Shown here: positions 992 to 53,720 of the stretch, piece by piece
Layout of the letters: each line of letters opens with the position of its first letter
Numbering within the stretch: the first letter of the stretch is position 1
Assembly (NCBI GenBank): GCA_018222605.1
Contig: JAAEZZ010000002.1
Coordinates: 372,001-436,000, forward strand
DNA: 64,000 bases
Direction of reading: 5' to 3'
Origin: Alphaproteobacteria bacterium
Lineage (GTDB): Bacteria > Pseudomonadota > Alphaproteobacteria > Caulobacterales > Hyphomonadaceae
Translations under genes and position numbers: made by a program
The notes under the pieces: model-generated
What the model was told of the DNA's origin: nothing
The model's database searches: none
What the model saw: only the letters and a program-made list of their open reading frames with translations

Positions 992-3757
<2,766 letters not shown>

Positions 3758-3762
3758 TCCTG

Positions 3763-4275
3763 ATGGCCCGGCTGATCATGCTGTCGGGCCTACCCGGATC
3801 AGGAAAATCCACACTTGGCCGGATACTTTCCGAACGCATTGGAGCGTGTCTTGTCAGGGTAGATGTGCTGGAGCAGGATATGCGCAATATGTGTGGCCCC
3901 GATCACGATGTGGGCACGAAGGGCTATGCAGCAGGTTACAAGCTGGCCTCAGAATATCTGATATCCGGCCATGACGTCATCGCAGACGCGGTGAATGCGG
4001 TAGAAGCCGCCCGAGACGGCTGGCGCACTATCGCTACCCAGGCACACGCCCCCATCATCGAGATCGAGATTCTTTGCTCATCCCTCGTCGAAGTGAAGAC
4101 CCGCCTGAAAACTCGCGACACCGGAATTAAAGGCCTTCGCCAAGTGAGCCTGAAAGACAGGCAGCAAAGGCGCTGGGACGACAATCCGCATGCAAATTTC
4201 CGGATCGACACGGCGGGCCGCTCCATCAATGCATGCGCGGACGAAATTGAGCATTTTTTGAACCCGGTGGATTAG
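3763..4275 (+). CDS. Small AAA/P-loop kinase-like protein (zeta-toxin/adenylylsulfate-kinase fold)
   Basis: A 170-residue protein with a P-loop GLPGSGKST at residues 9-17 right at the N-terminus. It resembles the AAA_33 family of small nucleotide or sugar kinases, with an RxxxR lid-like region (KTRLKTRD). ATG at 3763 was chosen because it lies just before the P-loop strand and 5 bp after the secA stop; the frame is also open upstream within secA. The substrate cannot be told from sequence. The position suggests cotranscription with secA. This family includes predicted phosphotransferases of unknown substrate; no antitoxin partner is visible, so a toxin role is not supported. Confidence 0.75.
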   Translation: MARLIMLSGLPGSGKSTLGRILSERIGACLVRVDVLEQDMRNMCGPDHDVGTKGYAAGYKLASEYLISGHDVIADAVNAVEAARDGWRTIATQAHAPIIEIEILCSSLVEVKTRLKTRDTGIKGLRQVSLKDRQQRRWDDNPHANFRIDTAGRSINACADEIEHFLNPVD

Positions 4276-4348
4276 GCCTCGCCTCACACGGGAACCTCTT
4301 GCACATTTCCGCGTTAACCATGCCGAAGCCTCAACAAGGAGACTCGTC

Positions 4349-35128: not shown

Positions 35129-35215
35129 TGGTGCCCAGAAGAGGACTCGAACCTCCACTCCCTTGCGAGAACTACGACCTGAACGTAGCGCGTCTACCAA
35201 TTCCGCCATCTGGGC
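35129..35215 (-). tRNA. tRNA-Leu (anticodon CAG)
   Basis: Read on the minus strand, the 87-nt gene begins GCCCAGATGGCGG and ends TCTGGGCACCA with the CCA encoded. The 7-bp acceptor stem, the anticodon arm CTACG-TTCAGGT-CGTAG giving CAG, a long variable arm (TTCTCGCAAGGGAG region), and the T arm GTTCGAGTC are all seen. The long variable arm identifies the leucine class. It decodes CUG. Confidence 0.95.
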
Positions 35216-40742: not shown

Positions 40743-43700
40743 TTAAGGTTTAGCCACATCCACCAAAGCGAGACTCATCTCTGCAACTTCATAGACGCGC
40801 AGATCATCCCGCCAGAGGCTGCCACGCGCCGTTGCAACGATGCGACCTTCATGTTGATCAACTGAGGTAATTTCCATCATGGTGACCACCTCTTTCTTGT
40901 CCGGCGTGACTTGGCCACGATAGCTCCATTTCACAGGATAATCACTCGCAAGCGTCTCGAACCTCGGCTCGGCCATATTAGTGTGCAGGCCTTTCAGTAA
41001 CATCGCCCTGGCCAGCAATTGCGCAAGCGCGTCCAGTCCCAGAGAACCAGGCTGCACCGGGTCCTGATAGAAATGCGCCTTGAAGTACCAGGCGTGAGGA
41101 TCGACGGCCTGACGCCCACGGATCAAGCCAAGTCCGGCCTCCCCGCCTTCCGCGTCAAAATGATCAATTTCATCCAGCATGCATAGCTGGTCCCTCGCCA
41201 GCAAGGCCTGGTCATCTTCCACAGCAATGACTTTTGAAGGCAGGGCGTAGACTGAACTGAAATGTGGCTTGTCTGAGAGACCTGCCTGACGAGCCAGTGC
41301 GCCGGATGGGAAAAAGCCAAACTGTGTTTTCAGGTCCAGAACTTTTTCACCAGACTTGCAGGATACAACAACATCAAAGGATACAATCGTCATTGGGCCT
41401 ACCCGCGAGAAACTCGACAGGCTACTCTTGATGACGAGCGTTTCATCCGCTGGAAAAACTTCCCTGTAGAGATGCCCATCGCCCTCAAGGTTGCGGAACT
41501 TGAGGACGCCGGACAGGGCAAAGCCGCAATGGCTGGCCAGCCAACCGCATGGCTGAAGGGCAATCTCCGAAAGCACGGCAAATGGCATGGCGCCATTGCC
41601 ATTGTCCTGGAAGTACCATGCCTGCGGAGGAATATCATACTCACAGCGCACCGCCGCGCCTACCTCCTGCACGCCCGGCCGGGTGGAGACCTCCATGACG
41701 CGCGTCATCATATGATAAGGGGGTTGCGGAAGCCTTGGCACGATTCCTTCGTGATCGAACCGCGTATACATGTCTCCGAAGGCAGCCGACGGCGCACCAT
41801 TCGCGCAATCCAGTAGAGCCGCATAGTCTCCCCGGCTTTCCTGCTGCGGCCCAATGCGGCGGGGTTGCCTGTCCTGTCTTGGAGCAGGCCAGGTGCGCCT
41901 CAGACGCAAGCCGAAACGGGGACAGTGGAACACTTTCTTGCCGTCTGAACTCGCCAGCAGGGTCGCATAGATTTCCGGCGCATCTCCATCAATGATCTCA
42001 TCAATGAAAACTTCATATGTCAGGTCATGGGCCTGGTCTGGAATAACCTGCCCCCGGCAAATGAATTGCGCCGTATGCCCAGGCACAGGCTCAAAAACAT
42101 ATCCATCACGCTCAAGCGTTAGCCCTGCCGCCGCCGCGTAAAACTCCATGGCCTGAACCGCTGCCTCGGCCATCAGGGTTCCGGGCATGCAGGGATCTTC
42201 ATGGAAGTGGCCTTCATAGAACCACATATCGGCAGTCACAGCTGCGCGCGCCTTCAGATATCCCCTGCCCCAAGGGCCGCCCTTCGGATCAAATATTTCA
42301 ACATCATCGAACAATTCCAGCTTGCCATCCGGCAAACAGGCGGGGAGAGACTGCGCAGCCGCAAGTTCGAACCCCACCCCAAAGCAGGCATAAATATCCC
42401 CCTGGCGAAAGGCATCGAGATCCGCCGGCGAAAAAGCTTTTTTCCGGCTAGCCTGCTCCGCGGGGAAAGGCTTTACCTCTGCCGTGGGCGGACCATCCCG
42501 CTCAGCTGACCAGACAACACCTTTTCCTGCCGCCAGCTCTGCATCACTGAAAAAGCCTGCCTGACCATTGCGGATCGAGAAGACAGGTCTGTCTCCGGCG
42601 CGGCAATCATACTGGAAGAAAAACATGCGGACATCCGCCAGCGTGGCATGACCGGTAATCTCTATCTGGAAGCGCAGTGTATCGCCAGGCTCCGGCAGTC
42701 CGCCCTCATGGAAGGTGATCTCACACCCCAAAAGTCGGTAAACGCGCTCATCCTGATTGCGAAAGTCAGCGCCCATCCAGCTAATAAGAGTGAGGTCTGC
42801 CTGACCGCACTCAATCAGCGGCCCCGGCCTTATCCGCCCATCATGCATGAACCACTGATCAGCACTCAGATCTGTTTCAGTCCAGATAACGCCCTTTGAC
42901 TCAATGCCGGGCTCTGCATCTATCCCGGTGATGCGGTCCACCAGTAGCAAGGGCGGCGCAGGCAAGCGCACCTGACGGGCATACCCATCTTGTTGACGAA
43001 ACTGCTCTCCGAAAAAGTCAGACATTTTCCCGCGGGTGGACGCCTCAATCGCCTCATATTCCCAAGAGGGTCCACAGGGCGAGCGTTGCAACAAGGGCTC
43101 TCCCCCACTCACCACCTTTTTCGGATCCGGCAATGGCCGATCCTTTGGGGGCGGTGGAAAGGCAATTAAACCTTCTAAGTGAGAAACAGGCTTGGCTTTC
43201 GCATAGAGGCAAGGCGCACGCCGCGGTGCAATTGGCAAAGTGGCGCAGCGGGCCATTTGCGGAACCACGGGGGGCGCATAGGGCACATCTCGTGCGACAG
43301 ACCATTTCTCCGGTCGCGGCAACGCGCTGGACCGGGCTTCGGCCAAGGCTTCTTCCACCCGCTTTATGCTCACCTGACGGCCTTCAGCAAACAGTACGCT
43401 GGCCAGTTCCGCCACCTGAGCAAGATCTGAAGACTCAATCCTGTCTGTGGCAACAGCGGTGAAGGGCTTGTCTTTCAGGATATGCGGCAAGGACTGGGTC
43501 AGTGTATCGCGAGGCCCCAGCTCGACAAACGTACGCACACCATCTTGCCAAGCTTGAAGAACCGTCTTGGGAAAGTCGACCGTATCGACAGCCTGGCGGG
43601 TCAGCATGTCCGCGACCGTCTCACTATCTGGTGTGTAGGCCCCATTCACGGCATTGGCATACAGGCGCACTTTAGGGCCAGAATGAACTTTGCGCGTATG

Positions 43701-46700
43701 CAATCTGCGCCAGGTTTCCTCAAACGGCTTCATGGCTTTTGCATGCACGATCAAATTCTGGTGCATCTTAGCGCCAGATCCACGCCCCAGCGCCTCGCAC
43801 ACGCTGCGACAAGCCTCTGAAGGGCCACCAATCATGCAGTCGCGGTCGGAATAAATGATCGTAATTTCCACGCCGGGTTGGCGGGCAATCTCTCTACGCA
43901 CATTTTCCAGTGGTGCCTGCACGCGCCAATTGCTCCAGTCAGAGGGAACATTTGGGCCCCAGGCCTCTCGTGCTGTTTCAAAGTCGCCACCAAGATGGCG
44001 CTCATACATTGCCGCATCAGAGATCTCATCCAGCAGAGCGCCCGGATCATCCCAGAAGCCGAATGCAAACAGCGCATTGCTCTCGCCCAGCGACAGCCCC
44101 AATGCCGCCTGTGGTTTGATACCTAATATGTCCAGCAGCAAGAACGCATGAGCCTGACTGATCAGTGTACCCGCACATAATTGCTCAAACTCGCTGAGCC
44201 TGGAGCGCATCAGCAATGGAGCAATCTCCTGCGCCTTGTCCAAACCGGACAGTTTCTGGCACAGGTCCGGGAAAGCCATCAAAAGACCGCGCCCCATCCT
44301 GGGATAGACGGCGGCAGAGCCGGTGAACATGAAGGCCAATTCCCCTTTGGCCTTGCCTTCGCCAAAGTGCAGGCCGTCTCCGGAAGGCGCCTCACCGCGT
44401 GACAGATATATCTGCGCTTCCGTCTTCTTTGCTTCCAGTTCCTCTGCGGAGGACGCCAGCAACGCGATGCGACAGGCACCTCGTCCGCCGGTTTTGCCCG
44501 ATGCGACTTTCGTTGCCAAGGCATCCTTGTCCTTGCCTGCAGCCCAGAACAAATATGGCGCGGGCCTGAGGGGATCTCCGACAGTCCGCGGCGATGCAGG
44601 CAGGAACTCGGCATATCCTGCGGAATTGACCGCCGTCTCCGCGACACCAATTCGCAGAGTTTTCTTTGAACTACCCAGATCCGGCATCGCGCCGTCATCC
44701 GAAATCTTCAATCCGCGTGCAGACGCCTGAGCTTCCAGAGCCATGCAGAAAACAGTGTCTGCGCAGGGTGCATATCCATAGGCATCTTGGAGGGATTTCG
44801 GTCGACTGTCCGGTGCCGCCTTCCAGAAAACACCCGGTACAATTCCCAAATGTGACGGGCCAGAATCCGGAAGATCCTCCACACGTTTCAGGATCAGGGC
44901 CGCAGCCTGATCCCCCGGACACTCCGTCAACCCCATATTAGACAAGGCCCTGGCCCGGACAGGCTCTGCGGCAAAGTCAGCGGCGGCAATAATGGCCGTG
45001 TCGATGGTTCCATTGCGCAAGGCTTCAATCGCCAGATCCAGCGCCGCCAGCCCTGATGCCGCGTCCGCCGAGACGGAAAAGCCCATGCCGTGATAGTCTT
45101 TCGCATAGGTCAGCCGGTTTGCCGTCATATTGGCCATCGCACCGAGCACCGTGGCGGCACTCAAGGCAGGCGCAATGCGATTCTGCATCTCAGCGAGCCT
45201 GGCCGCACCAGCAGCGCCGCCGACCAGACCAGCAAGCCGTTCCCGCAACAACCATCGCGCAGAATCCGCGGCGCACCCCATGGCCGTAAAGATGCCTGTG
45301 CGCCCCTGATCGACATCCCCTGCCGACGCCAGAGCCTCTTGCACAACATCCAAAATGGCCAATTGCTGAGGTTCTGCCTCTGTAAGGTCCCTTGGTGGGG
45401 TACGGGCGCTGATGGCATCCGCGCCAATCTTCTGACAGGGTTTGGACGGCTTCAGAGAATGGTTCATAAGCCGGCGGAGCACCGTCTCATTCCCCCTATC
45501 CTGACCGGCGAGCAGCCCCGTTGCGACGAGCGCTATGTCCCCGTCATAGATTTCCGGCAGTTGCACCTGAAGCTGATTTTCGGCCGGGCTGTATTGCTCA
45601 AGAATCAAATGCGCATTGTTTCCGCCAAATCCAAAATTGCTGATGCCTGCGAGGCGCGGCCCCTCAGGCCAGACTTCTTCCTGCTGAATGACCCTCAACC
45701 CCGATGCGCTGGCTGGCTCAATCAGGCTCCCATCTATGGGGGTGGCAGGCAGAACTCCGTGTTCGAACGCAGACGTCATCTTCAGGACGCTGGCGAGGCC
45801 TGCAGCGGTGATCAAGTGCCCCGTATTCGCTTTCAGGGAACCGATGGGCAGGGCGTCATCCCGCTGGAACATCTGCGCGGAGGCGACCAGTTCCACACTA
45901 TCGCCGGTTGGCGTGCCGGTTGCGTGACATTCAAGATATGAGACGCTGTCCGGAGACACACCGGACATGGCATATGCCTGACGCATTGCCTCCAGCTGCC
46001 CCTCCCCTGAGGGGGCCAGCAAACCTTTCCTGCGTCCATCATTCGACAGGCCAATCCCGCGAATAACTCCGGAGACCTTATCGCGGCGCGTAATATCGCT
46101 CAACCGTTTCAGCACGATTGAAACAGCGCCCTCAGACGGAACAAGACCATCCGCCCCCTGCACGAAAGGTCTGGATGTTCCCGTCGGGCTGAGAGCCTTC
46201 AGGGCATCGAAGCCGATATGCAGGATCAGATTATCTGCCGCATTCACGGCCGCAACAACGGCATAATCGAGCTGACCCGATTGCAAGCGACGACAGGCAA
46301 TTTCCAGCGCATAGAGCGATGAGGCACAGGCCGCGTCCAGCGAAAATGCCGGTCCGCCCAGCCCCAACACCTGGGAGATCAAGCGGGCCGGCAGCGCAGA
46401 ATTAAAGACACTTTCAGGCGCGCCAGAATTTTCCCCTGACCAGACAGACGCGGCATATGCCGCATGCGCTGCACTGGGATAAGAGAGATTGGCCACGAAC
46501 ACGCCCGTTTTGGCACGCCGCGAGCGTGCAACCCGCGCATCCTCCCATGCCTCTATCGCCGCATGGACAGGCCATGCGCAGACGGGGTCAGACACGACAA
46601 ATGTGCGATAAGCTTCCGGAATACGCTCCGGGTCAAAAACACTCTCAAACCCCTCCACCAGACCGGAAACATACCCCTCTGCTCGCGCTGCAGACGCACC

Positions 46701-46844
46701 CCTAAGTCGCCACGCAGGCACAGGCCCATAGACGACCTGCCGATCACGTACAATTTCCCAAAGGGCACGTGGGTTCAACGCACCAGGTAGTACACAGCCC
46801 TGACCAACGATTGCGATGGGTTCAAACCGGCAAGTGCCTGTCAT
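40743..46844 (-). CDS. pfaC: Pfa-type megasynthase: KS-CLF-AT-DH-DH (fused PfaB/PfaC functions)
   Basis: A 2033-residue multidomain synthase. Order (residues from ATG 46844): KS 8-420 with C173, H307 and H343; a chain-length-factor-like KS 435-750 whose active Cys is replaced by Ala (A595); an acyltransferase 835-1150 with GLSLGE (S918) and H1034; then four hotdog domains at about 1260-1437, 1470-1650, 1680-1850 and 1870-2028. The second (GHFHEDPCMPG, H1546) and fourth (AHFYQDPVQPG, H1924, D1938) look catalytic; the first has only a displaced His and the third lacks the His. This matches the paired FabA-like dehydratases of PfaC, with an AT inserted as in PfaB. The ATG overlaps the KR-frame stop (ATGA); a GTG three codons earlier is the alternative start. 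Confidence 0.9.
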   Translation of the reverse strand: MTGTCRFEPIAIVGQGCVLPGALNPRALWEIVRDRQVVYGPVPAWRLRGASAARAEGYVSGLVEGFESVFDPERIPEAYRTFVVSDPVCAWPVHAAIEAWEDARVARSRRAKTGVFVANLSYPSAAHAAYAASVWSGENSGAPESVFNSALPARLISQVLGLGGPAFSLDAACASSLYALEIACRRLQSGQLDYAVVAAVNAADNLILHIGFDALKALSPTGTSRPFVQGADGLVPSEGAVSIVLKRLSDITRRDKVSGVIRGIGLSNDGRRKGLLAPSGEGQLEAMRQAYAMSGVSPDSVSYLECHATGTPTGDSVELVASAQMFQRDDALPIGSLKANTGHLITAAGLASVLKMTSAFEHGVLPATPIDGSLIEPASASGLRVIQQEEVWPEGPRLAGISNFGFGGNNAHLILEQYSPAENQLQVQLPEIYDGDIALVATGLLAGQDRGNETVLRRLMNHSLKPSKPCQKIGADAISARTPPRDLTEAEPQQLAILDVVQEALASAGDVDQGRTGIFTAMGCAADSARWLLRERLAGLVGGAAGAARLAEMQNRIAPALSAATVLGAMANMTANRLTYAKDYHGMGFSVSADAASGLAALDLAIEALRNGTIDTAIIAAADFAAEPVRARALSNMGLTECPGDQAAALILKRVEDLPDSGPSHLGIVPGVFWKAAPDSRPKSLQDAYGYAPCADTVFCMALEAQASARGLKISDDGAMPDLGSSKKTLRIGVAETAVNSAGYAEFLPASPRTVGDPLRPAPYLFWAAGKDKDALATKVASGKTGGRGACRIALLASSAEELEAKKTEAQIYLSRGEAPSGDGLHFGEGKAKGELAFMFTGSAAVYPRMGRGLLMAFPDLCQKLSGLDKAQEIAPLLMRSRLSEFEQLCAGTLISQAHAFLLLDILGIKPQAALGLSLGESNALFAFGFWDDPGALLDEISDAAMYERHLGGDFETAREAWGPNVPSDWSNWRVQAPLENVRREIARQPGVEITIIYSDRDCMIGGPSEACRSVCEALGRGSGAKMHQNLIVHAKAMKPFEETWRRLHTRKVHSGPKVRLYANAVNGAYTPDSETVADMLTRQAVDTVDFPKTVLQAWQDGVRTFVELGPRDTLTQSLPHILKDKPFTAVATDRIESSDLAQVAELASVLFAEGRQVSIKRVEEALAEARSSALPRPEKWSVARDVPYAPPVVPQMARCATLPIAPRRAPCLYAKAKPVSHLEGLIAFPPPPKDRPLPDPKKVVSGGEPLLQRSPCGPSWEYEAIEASTRGKMSDFFGEQFRQQDGYARQVRLPAPPLLLVDRITGIDAEPGIESKGVIWTETDLSADQWFMHDGRIRPGPLIECGQADLTLISWMGADFRNQDERVYRLLGCEITFHEGGLPEPGDTLRFQIEITGHATLADVRMFFFQYDCRAGDRPVFSIRNGQAGFFSDAELAAGKGVVWSAERDGPPTAEVKPFPAEQASRKKAFSPADLDAFRQGDIYACFGVGFELAAAQSLPACLPDGKLELFDDVEIFDPKGGPWGRGYLKARAAVTADMWFYEGHFHEDPCMPGTLMAEAAVQAMEFYAAAAGLTLERDGYVFEPVPGHTAQFICRGQVIPDQAHDLTYEVFIDEIIDGDAPEIYATLLASSDGKKVFHCPRFGLRLRRTWPAPRQDRQPRRIGPQQESRGDYAALLDCANGAPSAAFGDMYTRFDHEGIVPRLPQPPYHMMTRVMEVSTRPGVQEVGAAVRCEYDIPPQAWYFQDNGNGAMPFAVLSEIALQPCGWLASHCGFALSGVLKFRNLEGDGHLYREVFPADETLVIKSSLSSFSRVGPMTIVSFDVVVSCKSGEKVLDLKTQFGFFPSGALARQAGLSDKPHFSSVYALPSKVIAVEDDQALLARDQLCMLDEIDHFDAEGGEAGLGLIRGRQAVDPHAWYFKAHFYQDPVQPGSLGLDALAQLLARAMLLKGLHTNMAEPRFETLASDYPVKWSYRGQVTPDKKEVVTMMEITSVDQHEGRIVATARGSLWRDDLRVYEVAEMSLALVDVAKP

Positions 46845-48214
46845 GATGTCCACTCGTCTCCGATAACCAATTCTGTTTCACTCGGCTCACCGAACAGGAT
46901 TTGATCGGCAAAGATTCGGGCCCCGTCTTCCAGACTGATCAGTTGGATGCCGCGCTGGGCAAAATGCGCCGCCAATGTGTCATCCACCATGCCGCCTTCC
47001 CATGGCCCCCAGCAGAAGCTTTTCACAATGGCATCCGGCAGCTGATGGGACAGCTCACGAGCCACCGCATTCAGCCAGGCATTGGCCATGGCATAATCAC
47101 TCTGGCCCACATTGCCGAATACAGCCGCAGCAGATGAAAAAAGGCCCACATGCCGTAGCCGGGAGATATCCAGGCAAGCCAGAATGTTCAACAAGCCTTC
47201 GACTTTCGGGCGGAATACGCGTTGCACCTCTCTCGGTGTCTTCTTGTCGGCAAGACTGTCCGCCAGGACGCCGGCCCCATGGACAAGCCCCGTAACCGGA
47301 CCATATTGCGCAACGGCATCCTGCATGGCACGCTGTAGCCCATCGGCATCGGATACATCCGCCATCAGATAAACCGCCTCGGCTCCCGCGGTTTCAATGG
47401 CATTTAGAGTCTGCCGGATTTCAGCGCTGGCGAGCAAGGCTTTTGCCTGTCTGTCTATATCTGGCAAGACGGGCTTCAGGCCGCGCGACCTGGCATCCTC
47501 TATCAGGGCCATCCGAAGCGACTTAATATCCTTCATCATTGGCAGATGATGCGGCCATTCGACAATCGGAGAGCGTCCAGCCAAAAGGAACACTGAACCA
47601 GGCTGCATCTGCGCCAGACGGATGACACACGCCGCCGTAACTCCCCTGCCCCCACCAGACACGAACCAGGCATTGCGTTCACTCTGCGCACGCCTTGATC
47701 GCACAGGAGCCCCCATGACCTTCAACTCATGGGCTTGCTTCCCTGCAAAGACGACATTTCCAACCCCCGCAGACAGCGCCTGAACTATGCTGGGGAAGCC
47801 ATCTTCTTCACGGCCCTCAAGCGACCAGGTCACAATATCTGTAGCCGGCCATTCCTGCGAGAGGGTTCTGGAGAGCCCCTGCAAACCGGAGACGTGCGTC
47901 AGCTCATCGGCCTGCGCTCGCTCAAGAAGGATCAGCTTGCGCCCTTCAAGTTGCAGTCGGCAGCAGGCCTCGAGAACCTGCCAATGGCGCTCGGTAATCG
48001 ACCCCTCGCTCAACCCCTCTGTCATGATGACGCAAGCCGCATTCACCGCATTGGCACTGTCCTGCAGACAAGCTTTGGCGCCTGCAGCCCGCAGTGCTTG
48101 AACAAGGCCAGACGCCAGCTCAGGCGCACCTTCGGTGACAGAGATCATCCCCAGCCCCTGTAGAGGACGCATGCTGCCCACAGCACCACAGGGCTGAAGC
48201 GAAACCACTCCCAC
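46841..48214 (-). CDS. PfaA-type ketoreductase (KR) domain frame, in the -1 frame downstream of pfaA
   Basis: It encodes the two-part polyketide KR of PfaA: a structural half, then the NADPH-binding half with SGGGRGVTAACVIRLAQ, VHGAGVLADSLADKK, the catalytic Ser (FSSAAAVFGNVG) and Tyr (QSDYAMANAWLN). It should reduce beta-keto groups. A stand-alone start would be GTG at 48214, but no ribosome-binding site precedes it and 74 bp separate it from the pfaA stop. The frame is open upstream through that gap into pfaA, and joins pfaA by a -1 shift at 48295-48301. A fused chain would add 484 residues. Either it is made by frameshifting, or there is a one-base indel in the T6 run, or it is a separate poorly initiated gene. 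Confidence 0.85.
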   Translation of the reverse strand: MGVVSLQPCGAVGSMRPLQGLGMISVTEGAPELASGLVQALRAAGAKACLQDSANAVNAACVIMTEGLSEGSITERHWQVLEACCRLQLEGRKLILLERAQADELTHVSGLQGLSRTLSQEWPATDIVTWSLEGREEDGFPSIVQALSAGVGNVVFAGKQAHELKVMGAPVRSRRAQSERNAWFVSGGGRGVTAACVIRLAQMQPGSVFLLAGRSPIVEWPHHLPMMKDIKSLRMALIEDARSRGLKPVLPDIDRQAKALLASAEIRQTLNAIETAGAEAVYLMADVSDADGLQRAMQDAVAQYGPVTGLVHGAGVLADSLADKKTPREVQRVFRPKVEGLLNILACLDISRLRHVGLFSSAAAVFGNVGQSDYAMANAWLNAVARELSHQLPDAIVKSFCWGPWEGGMVDDTLAAHFAQRGIQLISLEDGARIFADQILFGEPSETELVIGDEWTS

Positions 48215-48269
48215 ACGGCTTTGATACTCTGGCTCAGTCGGTGTATCCGCAAGGGGACGGGAGAACGCA

Positions 48270-48301
48270 GGCGGCGTTCCGCCGCCCCTTATCTGAAAAA
48301 A
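48270..48301 (-). promoter_or_regulatory. Candidate programmed -1 ribosomal frameshift signal at the pfaA-KR junction
   Basis: On the minus strand the last pfaA codons are GAT TTT TTC AGA TAA. T TTT TTC (48301-48295) fits the X XXY YYZ slippery rule. An 8-nt spacer (48294-48287, which includes the TAA stop) leads to the hairpin GGCGGCG-GAA-CGCCGCC (48286-48270), with 7 uninterrupted G-C pairs. After a -1 slip, reading resumes at CAG ATA AGG and continues without a stop through the KR domain. Heptamer, spacer length and hairpin are all as in known bacterial signals. Confidence 0.6.
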
Positions 48302-51300
48302 TCGGCAATCGCCCGGATCGTTCGGAGGTCCGTCAACTCTTCCGGATCCACCTCTGGCAATTCCGGATACTGATCTCTCAAGGATGACAGAATTTCGACC
48401 TGCTTGATGGAGTCCACACCCAACTCGCCTTCAAGGTCCATGTCGTCTTCGAGCATGTCCTCCGGATAGCCTGTTTTTTCCGCAATAAGGGCACGCACGG
48501 AATCAGCCGTTACACCGCCCGTAACCGGCGCTGACGCATTAGATGCCGGTGCCATGGTAGAGAGCTCCGCGGCTCCGTTTTTTTGCGACGGGGCACCAAT
48601 GCCTGCACCTTCAATCATCTCAGCGATTGCGGCGATGGTGCGCAACTCGACCAATTGCTCAGGATCGATTTCCGGAAGCGCCGGAATGCGCTCACGAATT
48701 GTCGACAGGATTTCGACCTGCTTGATGGAATCCACACCCAACTCGCCTTCAAGATCCATATCGGCTTCCAGCATATCTTCCGGATACCCCGTTTTCTCCG
48801 CAATGATGCCTCTCACCAGAGCAAGCGAGTCCCCATTCACGACATTCCCGGGTGCTTCCACAGCTGCAGGCTGGGGCGCAGGCGCGGCGGCTGCGGGCTT
48901 CGCAACCGGCGCGGCGGGCGCCGCAGCTTTAGCAGACACGGGGGCTGGCGTAGGAACGGATGGCTGTACCGAAGTATAGCTTCCATTTGGGCGTCCGCTA
49001 GGCACAGGCGCGGGTGCAGACGGGGCCACGGGCGCGGGAAGCGCCGCAGGAGGCGGCGGTGGCGGCGCAGAAGGCTGATGTCCAGTCACGCCAGCGATCT
49101 GCCCTGCCACATTCAGGAAAGCCGTATGGGCACTCGTCATAGCAGACATATATTCAGCGTGCCGCAGGGACATTTCTGAAATGATCCGATCTGAAGCGGT
49201 TGCAGGCGCAGCACCCATGCCCGGTTCGCCCGGCGCAGAAATGGAATGAGCAGGAGGAGTATCTTTTGTCATGGGAGAAGAGCCTGTCTGTTCTGGAAGA
49301 GCGGTTTTGGAAGCCGGCACAGCTTCACGCACCGGTTTGTGAATATTCGGCGCAGCCTTTCCAGCCGCACCTATTTCAGGAGGATAAGGTTTCTTGTAAT
49401 TGGCGCCTGAGATCATCACGGCATGTTTTGATGGCGCTGGTTTTTCCGGCTGAGGCGGCAGCGCCTCGAACAGCTTTACAAAATCCAAGGAGATGCCTGA
49501 GACGGCTAGCGTCGCGGATGCTGCCAGGAACTGGTTTACACCATTGCGTCGCTTGTGATCCAGCGACACAGCAAGATGCTCCTTGCCCTGCAGGATATTT
49601 CCCACAAGACCTGACACAACAGAGCCCGGACCAATTTCAACGAAGATCCGCGCGCCTGCCGCATGCATCGCTTCGACTTGTTCCCGGAATCGCACAGGCT
49701 GTACCAATTGGCCGGAAATGAAGTCTGGCAGCTCAGCTACTTTGCACGCATACTTGCTCGCAGTGGCGTTCGCATAGACATCCAGTTTCGGGCTTCGCAG
49801 TTTCTGCTTTGCCAGTAGCTTAGCGAATGGCGTGACGGCCCCCGCGACGATGTCCGAGTGGAAGGCTGTGGCGACTGGCAAGCGCCGCGCCTTGAAGCCT
49901 GCCTCGTCGCAAGCCTGTTGCGCAGTCTCAATCGCCTCGACAGTACCTGACAACACAATCTGGTCTGGTGCATTGTCATTGGCCAGCACAACGGACAGCC
50001 CAGCTTTCTCAATCAGCCCATTGATTGTGTCCGCATCGGTCTGCACGGCCAGCATGGCACCTTCAGATGTACTCGCCGCCACGGCCATCTGCGCACCACG
50101 CTCTGCAGACACGGTCAGGGCCGTATCAACATCCATGACACCAGCCTGATGCAGAGCCATGATTTCCCCGAAACTGTGCCCGGCTGCCATGTCCGGCTGC
50201 AGGCCCAGCGTATCCAGCAGCGCAAGCTGCGACAGCGCCACAGCAGCGATGGCGGGCTGGGCATGCTGCATTTCTGTCAGCCGCTGAGTCTGCGTTCCGA
50301 AATCCAACTGGTCGAACGCGGTGGGCGGAAAGGCCAGCCGATCAAGGCGCAGGTCACCTGTCCTCTTGTGACCTGCGGCACGATCCCAGATCTCACGCGC
50401 AGCCGGGAAAGCCATCGCAAGATCGCTCCCCATTCCGACATATTGGCTGCCCTGCCCCGAGAACATGAAAGCCACTTTACCCTCAACCGGCGGGTCGAGA
50501 GACGCTACGCAATCCTGCTTAAGTGGCCGCTTGCCAATTTCCCGGGCCTCAATCTGGCCAGCCAGTGCGGCGCCCTTGCTGACAAGATCAGCCGAATTTT
50601 CTGCTATGATCGCGGCCCTTGCCCCGGCTCTAGCGTCAAACCCCTCATGCGTGCGGGAGGCACGTAGCGCCAGATCGGCTTCGGGCACTTCACAGCACAC
50701 GGATTTGATTGACGACGCCAGTTCCTCAGGCGTCTCTCCAGAGAACAGGAACAGCTCTGCCGGCAAAACCCGATATGGCCGCACCGCACGCGCGCCGACA
50801 TATTCTTCAAGGGTCACATGGAAATTACTGCCGCCAAACCCAAAGGAACTGACTGAGCCCCGACGTGGCCGCTTGGGCGGGCTGATCCAGGGACGTGGCT
50901 CTGTATTCAGATAGAAGACCTTGCTGTCCTTGATAACATCGGCGGGTTCTTCAATCTTGATGGTCGGCGGAAGCACCTTGCGGCTCAACGCATTGACCAC
51001 TTTCACCAGGCTAGCCGATCCCGCGGCGGCCTTTGTATGCCCTATCTGGGATTTGATGGAGCCCAGCGCGCACCATGGGGCTTCGGCGCCTTCCCCGAAG
51101 ACAAGATGCAGGCCGTCGAGTTCGGCCTTATCCCCGGCGCGCGTGCCCGTGCCATGTCCCTCGACAAGGTCGACTGTATCCGGGCCATACCCCGCCTGCT
51201 CATAAGTTCTCTTCAGCGCCTTTGCCTGACCTTCAGGAACAGGCGCATAAATTGCCGTACCCTTCCCGTCTGACGATGCACCAATGCCGCGAATAACCGC

Positions 51301-52182
51301 ATGGATCGTATTGCCATCGCGCTCGGCATCTTCAAGACGCTTCAGGGCCAGCATGCCGACGCCTTCCCCCAGCATCGTACCATCAGCCTCATTTGAGAAA
51401 GGCCGGCAATCTCCGGTCGGCGACAGCGCTGGCGTCTTGGAGAAGCACATATACATGAGGATGTCGTTCAGCGCGTCGACCCCGCCGGTCAACACCATAT
51501 CACTGTCGCCGAGACGCAGTTCATTTATGGCGATCTGTAGTGCCGCGAGACTGGACGCACAGGCTGCATCCGTCACCATATTGCTGCCATCCAAATCCAG
51601 GCGGTTCGCAATCCGCCCCGCAACCACATTTCCAAGAAGGCCCGGAAATGTCGCTTCCTGCCACTCGGCATAATGCGCTTCGATCCGGCCTGAGATGTCC
51701 TGAACCTCATCTTCCGCCAGGCCAGCATCCCGCATGGCATTGACCCAGGCAGGTCGCTGAAGGCGGCCTGCCATGTGCGCGGTCAGCTCCGTGGCAGAGG
51801 CGACACCCAAAACGACACTGGTCCGACTACGGTCAATCAGCCCCTTGCTGTCGCGTTCAATATCCTCCAGCGTCATCTGCGCAGCAATCAAGGCCAATAG
51901 CTGGGCGGAATCCGTCCCCTGCATGGCCTTGGGCGGAATACCAAAGGTTACGGGGTCAAAAGCCAGCGGATTAATGAACCCGCCGCGCCGCCCATATGTC
52001 TTGTCTGGTGCCTTCGGATCAGGATCATAGTAATCCTCGATCAGCCAGTGACTGGCGGGCACATCCGATAACAGGTCCCGCCCTTCCATAATATCGCGCC
52101 AGAAACCGGTGACGTCTCCCCTTCCCGGAAAGATCGCGCCCATACCTACAATGGCGACAGGAATGGCAGACCTGGATGTCAT
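48289..52182 (-). CDS. pfaA: Pfa synthase subunit A: KS-AT-ACP-ACP (KR in the next frame)
   Basis: A 1297-residue protein of the iterative PUFA/secondary-lipid synthase type. Counting from ATG 52182: KS 6-460 with C208 (TDAACASS), H343 and H382; malonyl-AT 570-880 with GHSFGE (S670) and H775; a Pro/Ala-rich linker about 1035-1110; then two acyl carrier domains with LGVDSIKQ (phosphopantetheine Ser1152 and Ser1258), 106 residues apart. Canonical PfaA continues into a KR, which here lies in the -1 frame after a slippery T6C. A GTG at 52215 overlaps the pfaD stop (GTGA) and is an alternative start; ATG has GAGGA upstream. Only two ACPs are present, compared with four to nine in most marine PfaA proteins. 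Confidence 0.92.
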   Translation of the reverse strand: MTSRSAIPVAIVGMGAIFPGRGDVTGFWRDIMEGRDLLSDVPASHWLIEDYYDPDPKAPDKTYGRRGGFINPLAFDPVTFGIPPKAMQGTDSAQLLALIAAQMTLEDIERDSKGLIDRSRTSVVLGVASATELTAHMAGRLQRPAWVNAMRDAGLAEDEVQDISGRIEAHYAEWQEATFPGLLGNVVAGRIANRLDLDGSNMVTDAACASSLAALQIAINELRLGDSDMVLTGGVDALNDILMYMCFSKTPALSPTGDCRPFSNEADGTMLGEGVGMLALKRLEDAERDGNTIHAVIRGIGASSDGKGTAIYAPVPEGQAKALKRTYEQAGYGPDTVDLVEGHGTGTRAGDKAELDGLHLVFGEGAEAPWCALGSIKSQIGHTKAAAGSASLVKVVNALSRKVLPPTIKIEEPADVIKDSKVFYLNTEPRPWISPPKRPRRGSVSSFGFGGSNFHVTLEEYVGARAVRPYRVLPAELFLFSGETPEELASSIKSVCCEVPEADLALRASRTHEGFDARAGARAAIIAENSADLVSKGAALAGQIEAREIGKRPLKQDCVASLDPPVEGKVAFMFSGQGSQYVGMGSDLAMAFPAAREIWDRAAGHKRTGDLRLDRLAFPPTAFDQLDFGTQTQRLTEMQHAQPAIAAVALSQLALLDTLGLQPDMAAGHSFGEIMALHQAGVMDVDTALTVSAERGAQMAVAASTSEGAMLAVQTDADTINGLIEKAGLSVVLANDNAPDQIVLSGTVEAIETAQQACDEAGFKARRLPVATAFHSDIVAGAVTPFAKLLAKQKLRSPKLDVYANATASKYACKVAELPDFISGQLVQPVRFREQVEAMHAAGARIFVEIGPGSVVSGLVGNILQGKEHLAVSLDHKRRNGVNQFLAASATLAVSGISLDFVKLFEALPPQPEKPAPSKHAVMISGANYKKPYPPEIGAAGKAAPNIHKPVREAVPASKTALPEQTGSSPMTKDTPPAHSISAPGEPGMGAAPATASDRIISEMSLRHAEYMSAMTSAHTAFLNVAGQIAGVTGHQPSAPPPPPPAALPAPVAPSAPAPVPSGRPNGSYTSVQPSVPTPAPVSAKAAAPAAPVAKPAAAAPAPQPAAVEAPGNVVNGDSLALVRGIIAEKTGYPEDMLEADMDLEGELGVDSIKQVEILSTIRERIPALPEIDPEQLVELRTIAAIAEMIEGAGIGAPSQKNGAAELSTMAPASNASAPVTGGVTADSVRALIAEKTGYPEDMLEDDMDLEGELGVDSIKQVEILSSLRDQYPELPEVDPEELTDLRTIRAIADFFR
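48298..48825 (-). repeat. Tandem ACP-encoding repeat (318-bp period)
   Basis: The two acyl carrier domains of pfaA are near-identical at the DNA level over their core; for example TTTCGACCTGCTTGATGGA on the plus strand occurs at 48393 and 48711, 318 bp apart. Both encode DMDLEGELGVDSIKQVEILS. The repeat reflects tandem domain duplication and could allow ACP number to change by recombination. Confidence 0.85.
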
Positions 52183-52211
52183 GTTCGTGTGTTCCTCATC
52201 ACCCTTGCGCG

Positions 52212-53720
52212 TCACAGGAAATGCCGCGGCCTGAAAGAAAATTCAGTCGGCGGAATAGAAACTCCGCAAGCCCGCATCTGTCCCGCTCTGGACAGGTGCG
52301 CGGCTCCCTCCATCAAATTGAGGGCAATCTGGCGAACAGTTCGATTTTCGATCGGCTCCAGGAAAGTTCCGGAAACCCACTCGTTAAACGCGCCCTGCGC
52401 CGGACCACACCAGATCTGATAATCCGAGACGCGGCCTTCCGCGCCCTCGCGCGCCCATTGCGCGCCCATGAAAAGATATCGCCGCGCCACCAGCGCCAGG
52501 CGCTTGTTGTCATCTGTCTCAGCGCGCGCGGCTTCTTTGGGATTCGCCTTCTGAATATAAGCCCGCGTCTTTTGCCAGGCCGCAGGAAATGGCTCGCCCA
52601 GCACGCTATCCAGCCATTTACGATCTTCCGTACACATTTTTTCGTAAGATGCACCTGCCCGGTAAAACGCGTATAGCTTGCGCGCCCGCATCGCAAACAG
52701 GGTTCCGCGCTTCAACACCTGGACCTCGACGCCCTGCTCGAACATATCTGCGGCGGGTGCCATGGCCACATCTGCCGGGCCCGCCTTCGCCAGCAGTTGA
52801 CGCGCGCGCTCCGACAGGCCGGACTCGACTGCTGCCTGATTGATTGAGCCTGTCAGCACATAAGCCGCGCCCATCTGAAAAGCTGCAGCAACCCCGTGCG
52901 GAGTTGCAATGCCGCCGCTAAGGCCAATGCGGATCGTGTTGGCATCGATTCCTGACCGCTCCATCACACGGTCACGCGCGAGACACAGGGATGAAAAGAG
53001 CGGGGCCGCGGCCCGGTTATCCGTATGGCCGCCGCTATCAGCCTCGGCCGTAATATCCAGCGCGACCGAAACCTGCGCAGCCAGGTCGGCCTGCGCTTCA
53101 CTGATACGCCCTTCCGCGACCAATGCTTTGAGAATGTTTTCAGGTGCAGGTGCCATGAACTGCTCAGCCACCTCAGCGCGGGAGACTTTGGCGAAGACAT
53201 GGTTGGCACGTGTGATGCTGCCATCTTCGGCGCGGGTCAGACCCAAAGCGGTAAAGCGCACGATTTCTGGAGACAGGCGCATATAGGCTGAGGCCGACAG
53301 GCGGCGCACGCCTCGCTCCAGAAACAGGTCGACTACTTTGGCCTCATATCCCGGCTGTTGCGGAGAGTGGATAAGATTGGCGCCCCAGGAAACCTGATCG
53401 GGACCCAGCGCGGATTTGATCTCTTTCAGACCCGCATCAATCGCGTCGGGCTGAAGGCCCGCACTGCCATAGAAACCGACACAGCCGCACCGGACTGCTT
53501 CAATCACCATGCGCGGTGTGGCAATCCCTCTCGCCATTTCACCAACGACATAATTGAATCGTGCGCCGTGTGCCTCTGCAAACGCCCGGTCTCCCAGCCA
53601 TTCAGGATAGATCGGAGGAAAGCAGATCCGCCTCTTACTCTCCCCGTCCGAGTTTGCATTTTCGTCGACACAGACTTCTTCCCGCAAACGGGAGAGAAGT
53701 TGCTCGCCTGAGTACCCCAT
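52212..53720 (-). CDS. pfaD: PfaD enoyl reductase
   Basis: A 502-residue FMN-dependent enzyme of the nitronate monooxygenase-like PfaD family, the trans-acting enoyl reductase of Pfa synthases. Family features are NYVVGEMARGIATPRMVIEAV near the N-terminus, WGANLIHSP, TAEADSGGHTDNR (a flavin/active-site segment), and GGIATPHGVAAAFQMGAAYVLTGSINQ for phosphate binding. A helical C-terminal domain (about 330-502, with WCGPAQGAFNEWV) is also typical. It is the first gene of the minus-strand operon and overlaps pfaA (GTGA). The partner phosphopantetheinyl transferase (PfaE) is not in the window. Confidence 0.94.
   Translation of the reverse strand: MGYSGEQLLSRLREEVCVDENANSDGESKRRICFPPIYPEWLGDRAFAEAHGARFNYVVGEMARGIATPRMVIEAVRCGCVGFYGSAGLQPDAIDAGLKEIKSALGPDQVSWGANLIHSPQQPGYEAKVVDLFLERGVRRLSASAYMRLSPEIVRFTALGLTRAEDGSITRANHVFAKVSRAEVAEQFMAPAPENILKALVAEGRISEAQADLAAQVSVALDITAEADSGGHTDNRAAAPLFSSLCLARDRVMERSGIDANTIRIGLSGGIATPHGVAAAFQMGAAYVLTGSINQAAVESGLSERARQLLAKAGPADVAMAPAADMFEQGVEVQVLKRGTLFAMRARKLYAFYRAGASYEKMCTEDRKWLDSVLGEPFPAAWQKTRAYIQKANPKEAARAETDDNKRLALVARRYLFMGAQWAREGAEGRVSDYQIWCGPAQGAFNEWVSGTFLEPIENRTVRQIALNLMEGAAHLSRAGQMRACGVSIPPTEFSFRPRHFL

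Follow-up and report, generated by a model that had tools for sequence, protein, structure and literature searches.

The junction between a PfaA-like synthase gene and its ketoreductase (KR) in the window, i.e. the whole stretch of 64,000 nucleotides analysed here, is very probably a site of programmed -1 ribosomal frameshifting which yields a short and a KR-bearing form of the protein, as judged from the sequence and its conservation in relatives. We infer slipping itself, its ribosomal nature, its frequency and its setting of the KR dose. A ribosome on the PfaA-like mRNA would reach GAU UUU UUC at the moment of meeting a 14 bp stem 6 nt further on; some ribosomes would slip back by one base on U UUU UUC, with tRNA-Phe re-pairing with UUU UUU, and enter the KR frame, and the remaining ones would read one further codon and then stop. 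The products would be KS-AT-ACP-ACP and KS-AT-ACP-ACP-KR. This was the reading of the original prediction, and it is supported by the -1 split of 49 out of 50 distinct junctions of the family.

Operon layout and the KR frame

The Pfa-type operon on the minus strand of the window, in a host genome of 3.7 Mb, is composed of a PfaD-like gene, a PfaA-like gene, the KR in the -1 frame and a PfaBC-like gene. The first of these (52212..53720), located before the PfaA-like gene, matches the Pfam family FabD_helical_ins over the cut-off and NMO below it. The PfaA-like zero frame (48289..52215, 1308 amino acids, KS-AT-ACP-ACP from the ORF reading and Pfam) ends, as had been predicted, after two ACPs (two PP-binding stretches), and the KR was likewise found in the -1 frame with no stop in between. 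No stop interrupts the -1 frame from 142 nt upstream of the zero-frame TAA down to 46841; read from the slip site (46841..48295, minus strand), it encodes a linker and the KR, in total 484 amino acids (Pfam KR, E=1.3e-31). The PfaA domain order KS-AT-ACP(n)-KR is complete at the locus, but the KR is reached by a frame change only.

The PfaBC-like gene downstream (40743..46853, minus strand) carries KS (two N-terminal stretches), a weak AT and a FabA-like DH (two stretches), a KS-KS-AT-DH order resembling a fused PfaBC. Its in-frame ATG (46844-46842) overlaps the KR stop as ATGA. In 48 readable loci the KR stop and the next start form ATGA in 30 cases, GTGA in two, TAATG in one and other arrangements in 15. 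Given how frequent this overlap is, the PfaBC-like partner may be supplied by slipping ribosomes as well, and translational coupling may put it under frameshift control. Elsewhere in the window the sole Rfam match at the gathering threshold is a tRNA gene (35132-35215, minus strand).

Conservation of the split in Hyphomonadaceae

Translated from the slip site onwards, the -1 frame (P0002) served as query in 61 genomes. It matches at E 3.2e-52 or better in 35 of the 37 genomes of the genus, the own genome counted, and was not found in the other two (G001 and G021). For 30 loci of the genus the frame of the KR was compared with that of the last ACP; it is at -1 in 29, and only L007 is at 0. The ACP could be read in 60 family loci, ten of which repeated a junction and were dropped; among the 50 distinct ones, belonging to Hyphomonas, Henriciella and one more genus, the split is at -1 in 49, L007 again being at 0, and in the same 49 of 50 the KR continues the -1 frame. 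At the level of the order, 46 of 299 sampled genomes match at 1e-25. They include three genera of Hyphomonadaceae, with KR frames of 325-592 amino acids, and five genomes from two other families; in all five the KR frames are longer (1982-2836 amino acids) and fused with the ACPs. A sample of 289 genomes from Alphaproteobacteria at large gave four matches, two in Hyphomonas and two elsewhere (G339, G417), the latter with open frames of 1512 and 667-8044 amino acids.

A missing T in the run, from a sequencing error or gene decay in the window genome, would look alike, as the original prediction had pointed out, and the exceptional locus L007 shows that junctions can be damaged. In L007 (1459-1512; genome G003, identical to L038, Hyphomonas sp. 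L-53-1-40) the slip site and stop are kept, and the 3' arm of the stem is lost to a deletion, after which the KR sits in the zero frame past the stop. However, the split is common to 49 of 50 distinct junctions, and because the same T run recurs in many separately assembled genomes, including the one-contig genomes G016, G018, G036 and G063, loss of a T in one assembly is excluded; error or decay is excluded at the family level and conceivable for single loci. Nor does the KR look decayed, since its dN/dS is 0.27, 0.16 and 0.17 in three pairs and the columns GG.RGVT plus S/Y/N and K, which we take to be those expected of a KR, are invariant in 18 of 18 rows. For the window the probability of such an explanation is negligible. 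A point less in favour of the frameshift is the linker, with dN/dS values of 0.64, 0.17 and 0.13 in three pairs that are noisy in short linkers.

Alignment of the junctions of the relatives bore out the conservation of T6C or T7 and of the split, but not that of the 7 bp hairpin originally proposed, in place of which a 35 nt stem is found (see below). A continuous frame, the outcome in relatives that had been named as speaking against a signal, did not occur, 49 of 50 junctions being split with T6C or T7. Four new junctions outside the earlier set (L242, L246, L280 and L279) all have the T run, the stop, the stem and a KR at -1; in L279, whose stem was identified by eye, GGT takes the place of GAT, so that the first T of the heptamer is retained. 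Two loci from records titled Acidobacteria (L043, L044) carry a Hyphomonas-type junction, and as L043 is identical to L028 of a genome of the same genus these titles look wrong.

Slip heptamer, possible starts and downstream stem-loop

The slip heptamer T TTT TTC (48295..48301, minus strand) lies in the zero frame GAT TTT TTC AGA TAA, with the TAA stop (48289..48291) one codon past it. Its presence, as described in the original prediction, is confirmed, and in the zero frame of the 50 distinct family junctions the X XXY YYZ heptamer is T TTT TTY in all 50, followed by TGA in 20, TAG in 16 and TAA in 14. Over the last 45 codons before the zero-frame stop in 50 family loci synonymous variation is found at all codons but two, the GAT and the first Phe codon TTT, which jointly spell T TTT TT. 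The codon before the first Phe is GAT in 49 of 49 cases of Asp (49 of 50 junctions) and AAT in one locus, the first Phe is always TTT (50 of 50), and the second is TTT in 35 and TTC in 15, giving T7 in 35 of 50 junctions. Elsewhere in these loci TTT is used 306 times vs 848 for TTC, and GAT 1088 times vs 1683 for GAC. On this codon pattern the heptamer is under selection of its own. In 15 of 49 loci a -1-frame stop immediately precedes the heptamer, so in these the -1 frame opens only at the heptamer. In E. coli work U_UU.U_UU.C is described as being among the more efficient heptamers and is found in IS elements (PMC4066793).

T runs could also act at transcription: RNA polymerase would slip on the run and some mRNAs would change frame and give the fusion by standard translation. 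The T7 of 35 junctions fits this explanation, as does the avoidance of UUUUUUU in all frames in enterobacteria, for which transcriptional slippage is one possible reason named (PMC4066793), and context-dependent slippage at a short run is reported for a Roseiflexus IS (PMC5009743). Yet the run is T6 in the window and T6-T7 in the family, compared to the runs of nine given for efficient bacterial slippage (PMC5009743). The heptamer is moreover kept in phase as T TTT TTY, and the stem, being 3' of the T run, would still be untranscribed when the polymerase is at the run. We hold polymerase slippage at this junction to be highly improbable and prefer the ribosomal frameshift.

Alternatively, the KR could be a gene of its own, translated from GTG 48214 or from some other internal start, possibly by ribosomes that re-initiate once pfaA translation has ended. 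The first ATG, GTG or TTG of the -1 frame after the slip site is indeed this GTG, at +77 from the stop, and no SD-like sequence was found before it by a simple pattern, which agrees with the earlier statement that no start or ribosome-binding site precedes it. Start-like codons are present in the -1 frame by +101 in 39 of 49 loci, and in one locus (L025) an ATG and the stop overlap in ATGA. The AlphaFold2 model of the -1-frame product (mean pLDDT 87.8) did not decide on the start site, its residues 1-19 being of low confidence (below 50); the first strand of the KR starts, in this model, at residue 28, which is the GTG codon, so a KR made from there could fold. Two published cluster types also give pfaA as two genes (PMC3098273). 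Against a separate gene, the start is not conserved, the codon at +77 being GTG in 14 of 49 loci and a start-like codon being absent by +101 in ten, and L018 has none before +317. A separate gene would also leave unexplained the fixed heptamer, the fixed position of the stop and the covarying stem, and we regard it as very improbable. Between the zero-frame stop and +77 stops occur in the -1 frame in none of 49 loci, in the +1 frame in 48 and in the zero frame in ten.

The programmed frameshift has a candidate stimulator in a conserved stem-loop of 35 nt and 14 bp (48254..48288, minus strand), found by folding, pair counts and a covariance model. It starts 6 nt past the heptamer, has one internal mismatch and folds with -23.6 kcal/mol (z=-3.76); the arms are 48288-48282/48260-48254 and 48280-48274/48268-48262, with the loop at 48273-48269. 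A shorter form of 32 nt is found in ten family loci, and these ten junctions and L007 were excluded from the alignment (A4, 39 junctions, 36 distinct rows). In shuffled comparisons that ignore relatedness, 79.4% of cells are paired vs 71.5% in shuffles (0 of 500 as high), doubly changed cells number 56 vs a shuffled mean of 21.6 (0 of 500), the covariation score is 0.320 vs 0.196 (0 of 500) and double changes occur at 10 of 14 pairs (equalled by 6 of 500). Further pair types, 25 in number, were equalled by 140 of 500 shuffles and so are not above them. Shifting the partner by 1 to 3 columns lowers pairing to 50-61%. RNAalifold unaided recovers the outer arm, together with three inner pairs in another register, and the register of the inner stem differs between genera. 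By these alignment counts the stem shows compensatory changes.

The hairpin of the original prediction (48270..48286, 7 bp, 3 nt loop, 8 nt past the heptamer) is present as an alternative fold of the same bases and, folded alone, the piece gives -14 kcal/mol (z=-2.44). It is not conserved, with 47.2% of cells paired vs a shuffled mean of 53.6% and 500 of 500 shuffles at least equal, and we rejected it as stimulator; the 35 nt stem-loop, rather than this hairpin, is the likely one. The stem was also considered as an intrinsic terminator and discarded, as no stem plus T run is found on the minus strand in 47800-48800. No Rfam family matches the junction (48150-48450) up to E=10. In L025 (2874-2927, genome G030), where the ATGA over the stop supplies the ATG in the -1 frame, the 3' part of the stem is altered.

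With the covariance model (R1) the site in the window reaches 67.2 bits; the runner-up, at the same place on the opposite strand, has 12. The model matches at E 5e-8 or better in 38 of 42 genomes of the genus, those without a match being G001, G021, G015 and G1623; G001 and G021 also lack a KR match, and in G015 the KR sits at the start of a contig. At 1e-5 or better 55 of 105 family genomes, from three of ten genera, have one match each, the genome of L007 (G003) among them. A cassette elsewhere was looked for and rejected: the next matches in the genus (G019 27.4, G026 23.8 and G1622 22.4 bits) lack the expected stop codon, and the one in G026 has most outer pairs broken; these weaker matches were judged to be due to chance. 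The weak second match of G019 (L256 1184-1237, E=6.1e-5 per genome), with GATTTTTTC and no stop, is probably such a case.

Other lineages and known recoding systems

We consider it fairly probable that programmed recoding recurs in bacteria at the ACP/KR boundary of PUFA-type synthases, with U UUU UUY and a stem in Hyphomonadaceae, A9-A11 runs, where either ribosome or polymerase would slip, in the majority of readable SAR324 loci, A AAA AAG and a stem in a pair of Myxococcota, and an A-run or A6C in single cyanobacterial and Pelagicoccus loci. In a contig scan across genomes the best 80 KR loci were analysed. Fifty are fused according to the classifier, which with the five of the order sample gives 55, and no FF was seen in the 25 residues read of the ACP tail in 54 fused loci. 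Outside the family ten loci are split at -1: five SAR324-like loci, L047 (Nostoc), L101 (Pelagicoccus), L115 (Myxococcales), L116 and L086. Splits in more than one genome are found in Hyphomonadaceae, SAR324 and Myxococcota, the others being single loci or a few.

In the SAR324 phylum 30 of 52 genomes match, and their 30 loci comprise 23 split, five fused and two without a readable ACP. All 23 split loci have an A9-A11 run inside the frame overlap, only three other A9/T9 runs being present in their 121 kb, and in 22 of them the -1 frame continues for 795-853 codons; the remaining one (L153) has a second frame break after 213 codons. Since bacterial RNA polymerase is reported to slip on runs of nine A or T (PMC5009743), the mechanism in SAR324 may be transcriptional, and such slippage is a serious rival to ribosomal slipping in this phylum.

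Myxococcota match in 91 of 282 genomes, and the 30 loci fetched are 26 fused, two unreadable and two split (L201, which is the locus of L115, and L202). Both split loci have a run of six or seven A followed by G with the stop adjoining; the stem downstream of L115 has z=-4.87, and the matching stem of L202 was found by eye. For Cyanobacteria (matches in 33 of 244 genomes, 30 loci fetched) ACP and KR share one frame in 17 loci, two are unreadable, and in eight the ACP frame runs on for 303-325 codons with the catalytic KR in another ORF. Two loci (L171, which is the locus of L047, and L197) have the KR at -1 after an A9 run, and L113 is a third. L189 (G703) has a pseudo-KR, open for 255 codons, after the ACP stop at +1, not -1, and no A or T run of six.

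Verrucomicrobiota match in four of 240 genomes. Apart from Pelagicoccus, long frames are seen in two of them, and the ACP and KR of L234 are in a single frame. The site in Pelagicoccus (L101) is A AAA AAC, and its stem (z=-2.2) was equalled by 6 of 200 shuffles; this heptamer is described as having low efficiency in E. coli (PMC4066793). L116 (Acidimicrobiales, ~3180-3330) and L086 (cyanobacterium, ~280-430) are split at -1 after the last ACP and have strong stems directly after the stop, and L250 (Persicobacter psychrovividus plasmid, ~4150-4320) is split in the same way; no clear slip run was seen in these three, which are left uncounted as leads. L250 has an in-frame G GGA AAG near the end, which we take to resemble the lambda slip site. 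Its sister L249 is fused; ACP and KR are in one frame in both L249 and a further relative, L236.

The slip mechanism is of a known kind; what is new is the target, the catalytic domain of a lipid megasynthase, and the apparent recurrence in several phyla. A close parallel in a cellular gene is csoS2 of the alpha-carboxysome, with a -1 shift, a 3' stem-loop and long and short forms in one assembly (PMC5009743). Frameshifting there is reported as 50% efficient, and no 5' Shine-Dalgarno stimulator was seen (PMC5009743); the shifted form is the short one, whereas here the shift would lengthen the protein and add a catalytic domain. In dnaX (tau/gamma), too, a -1 shift takes place at a heptamer followed by a simple stem-loop, and in some bacteria the long form reportedly comes from the shift, with a stop right after the site (PMC5009743), but it is another gene and its heptamer is A AAA AAG. 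In Thermus dnaX transcriptional slippage on a one-base run likewise gives two products (PMC5009743); that run is of nine, in contrast to T6-T7 and a downstream stem in Hyphomonadaceae, and by analogy it may serve as a model for SAR324.

Among described Pfa clusters, type D of Shulse and Allen (2011) has pfaA1 (KS-AT-ACPs) and pfaA2 (KR) as separate ORFs and a fused pfaBC, and type H has pfaA likewise split and pfaBC fused (PMC3098273). These are given as two genes, and the word 'frameshift' is absent from that text (PMC3098273). The main text of a 1106-genome survey of frame transitions contains none of the terms 'fatty acid', 'ketosynthase' and 'beta-ketoacyl' (PMC3711429). By title and abstract no report of frameshifting in a PUFA or polyketide synthase was found in the open-licence literature, a weak absence.

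Iterative type I synthases are usually treated as fixed domain chains. If the recoding is real, these synthases would run with fewer KR domains than ACP-bearing chains, in a ratio set at decoding, and the number of reductase domains per complex, set by the frameshift ratio, would offer a handle on when they reduce; a repeated origin, if true, would mean that sub-stoichiometric KR is itself selected. In annotation such a gene resembles two genes or a pseudogene with a frameshift, and transfer of a cluster into a different host could alter its KR ratio. The signal, present in 55 of 105 family genomes, is compact and reporter-friendly. In addition to the Pfa-type operon, the same genome contains seven clustered large KS-bearing open frames (G000:C14:336639-377187; 1456-2532 amino acids), which are modular PKS-like.
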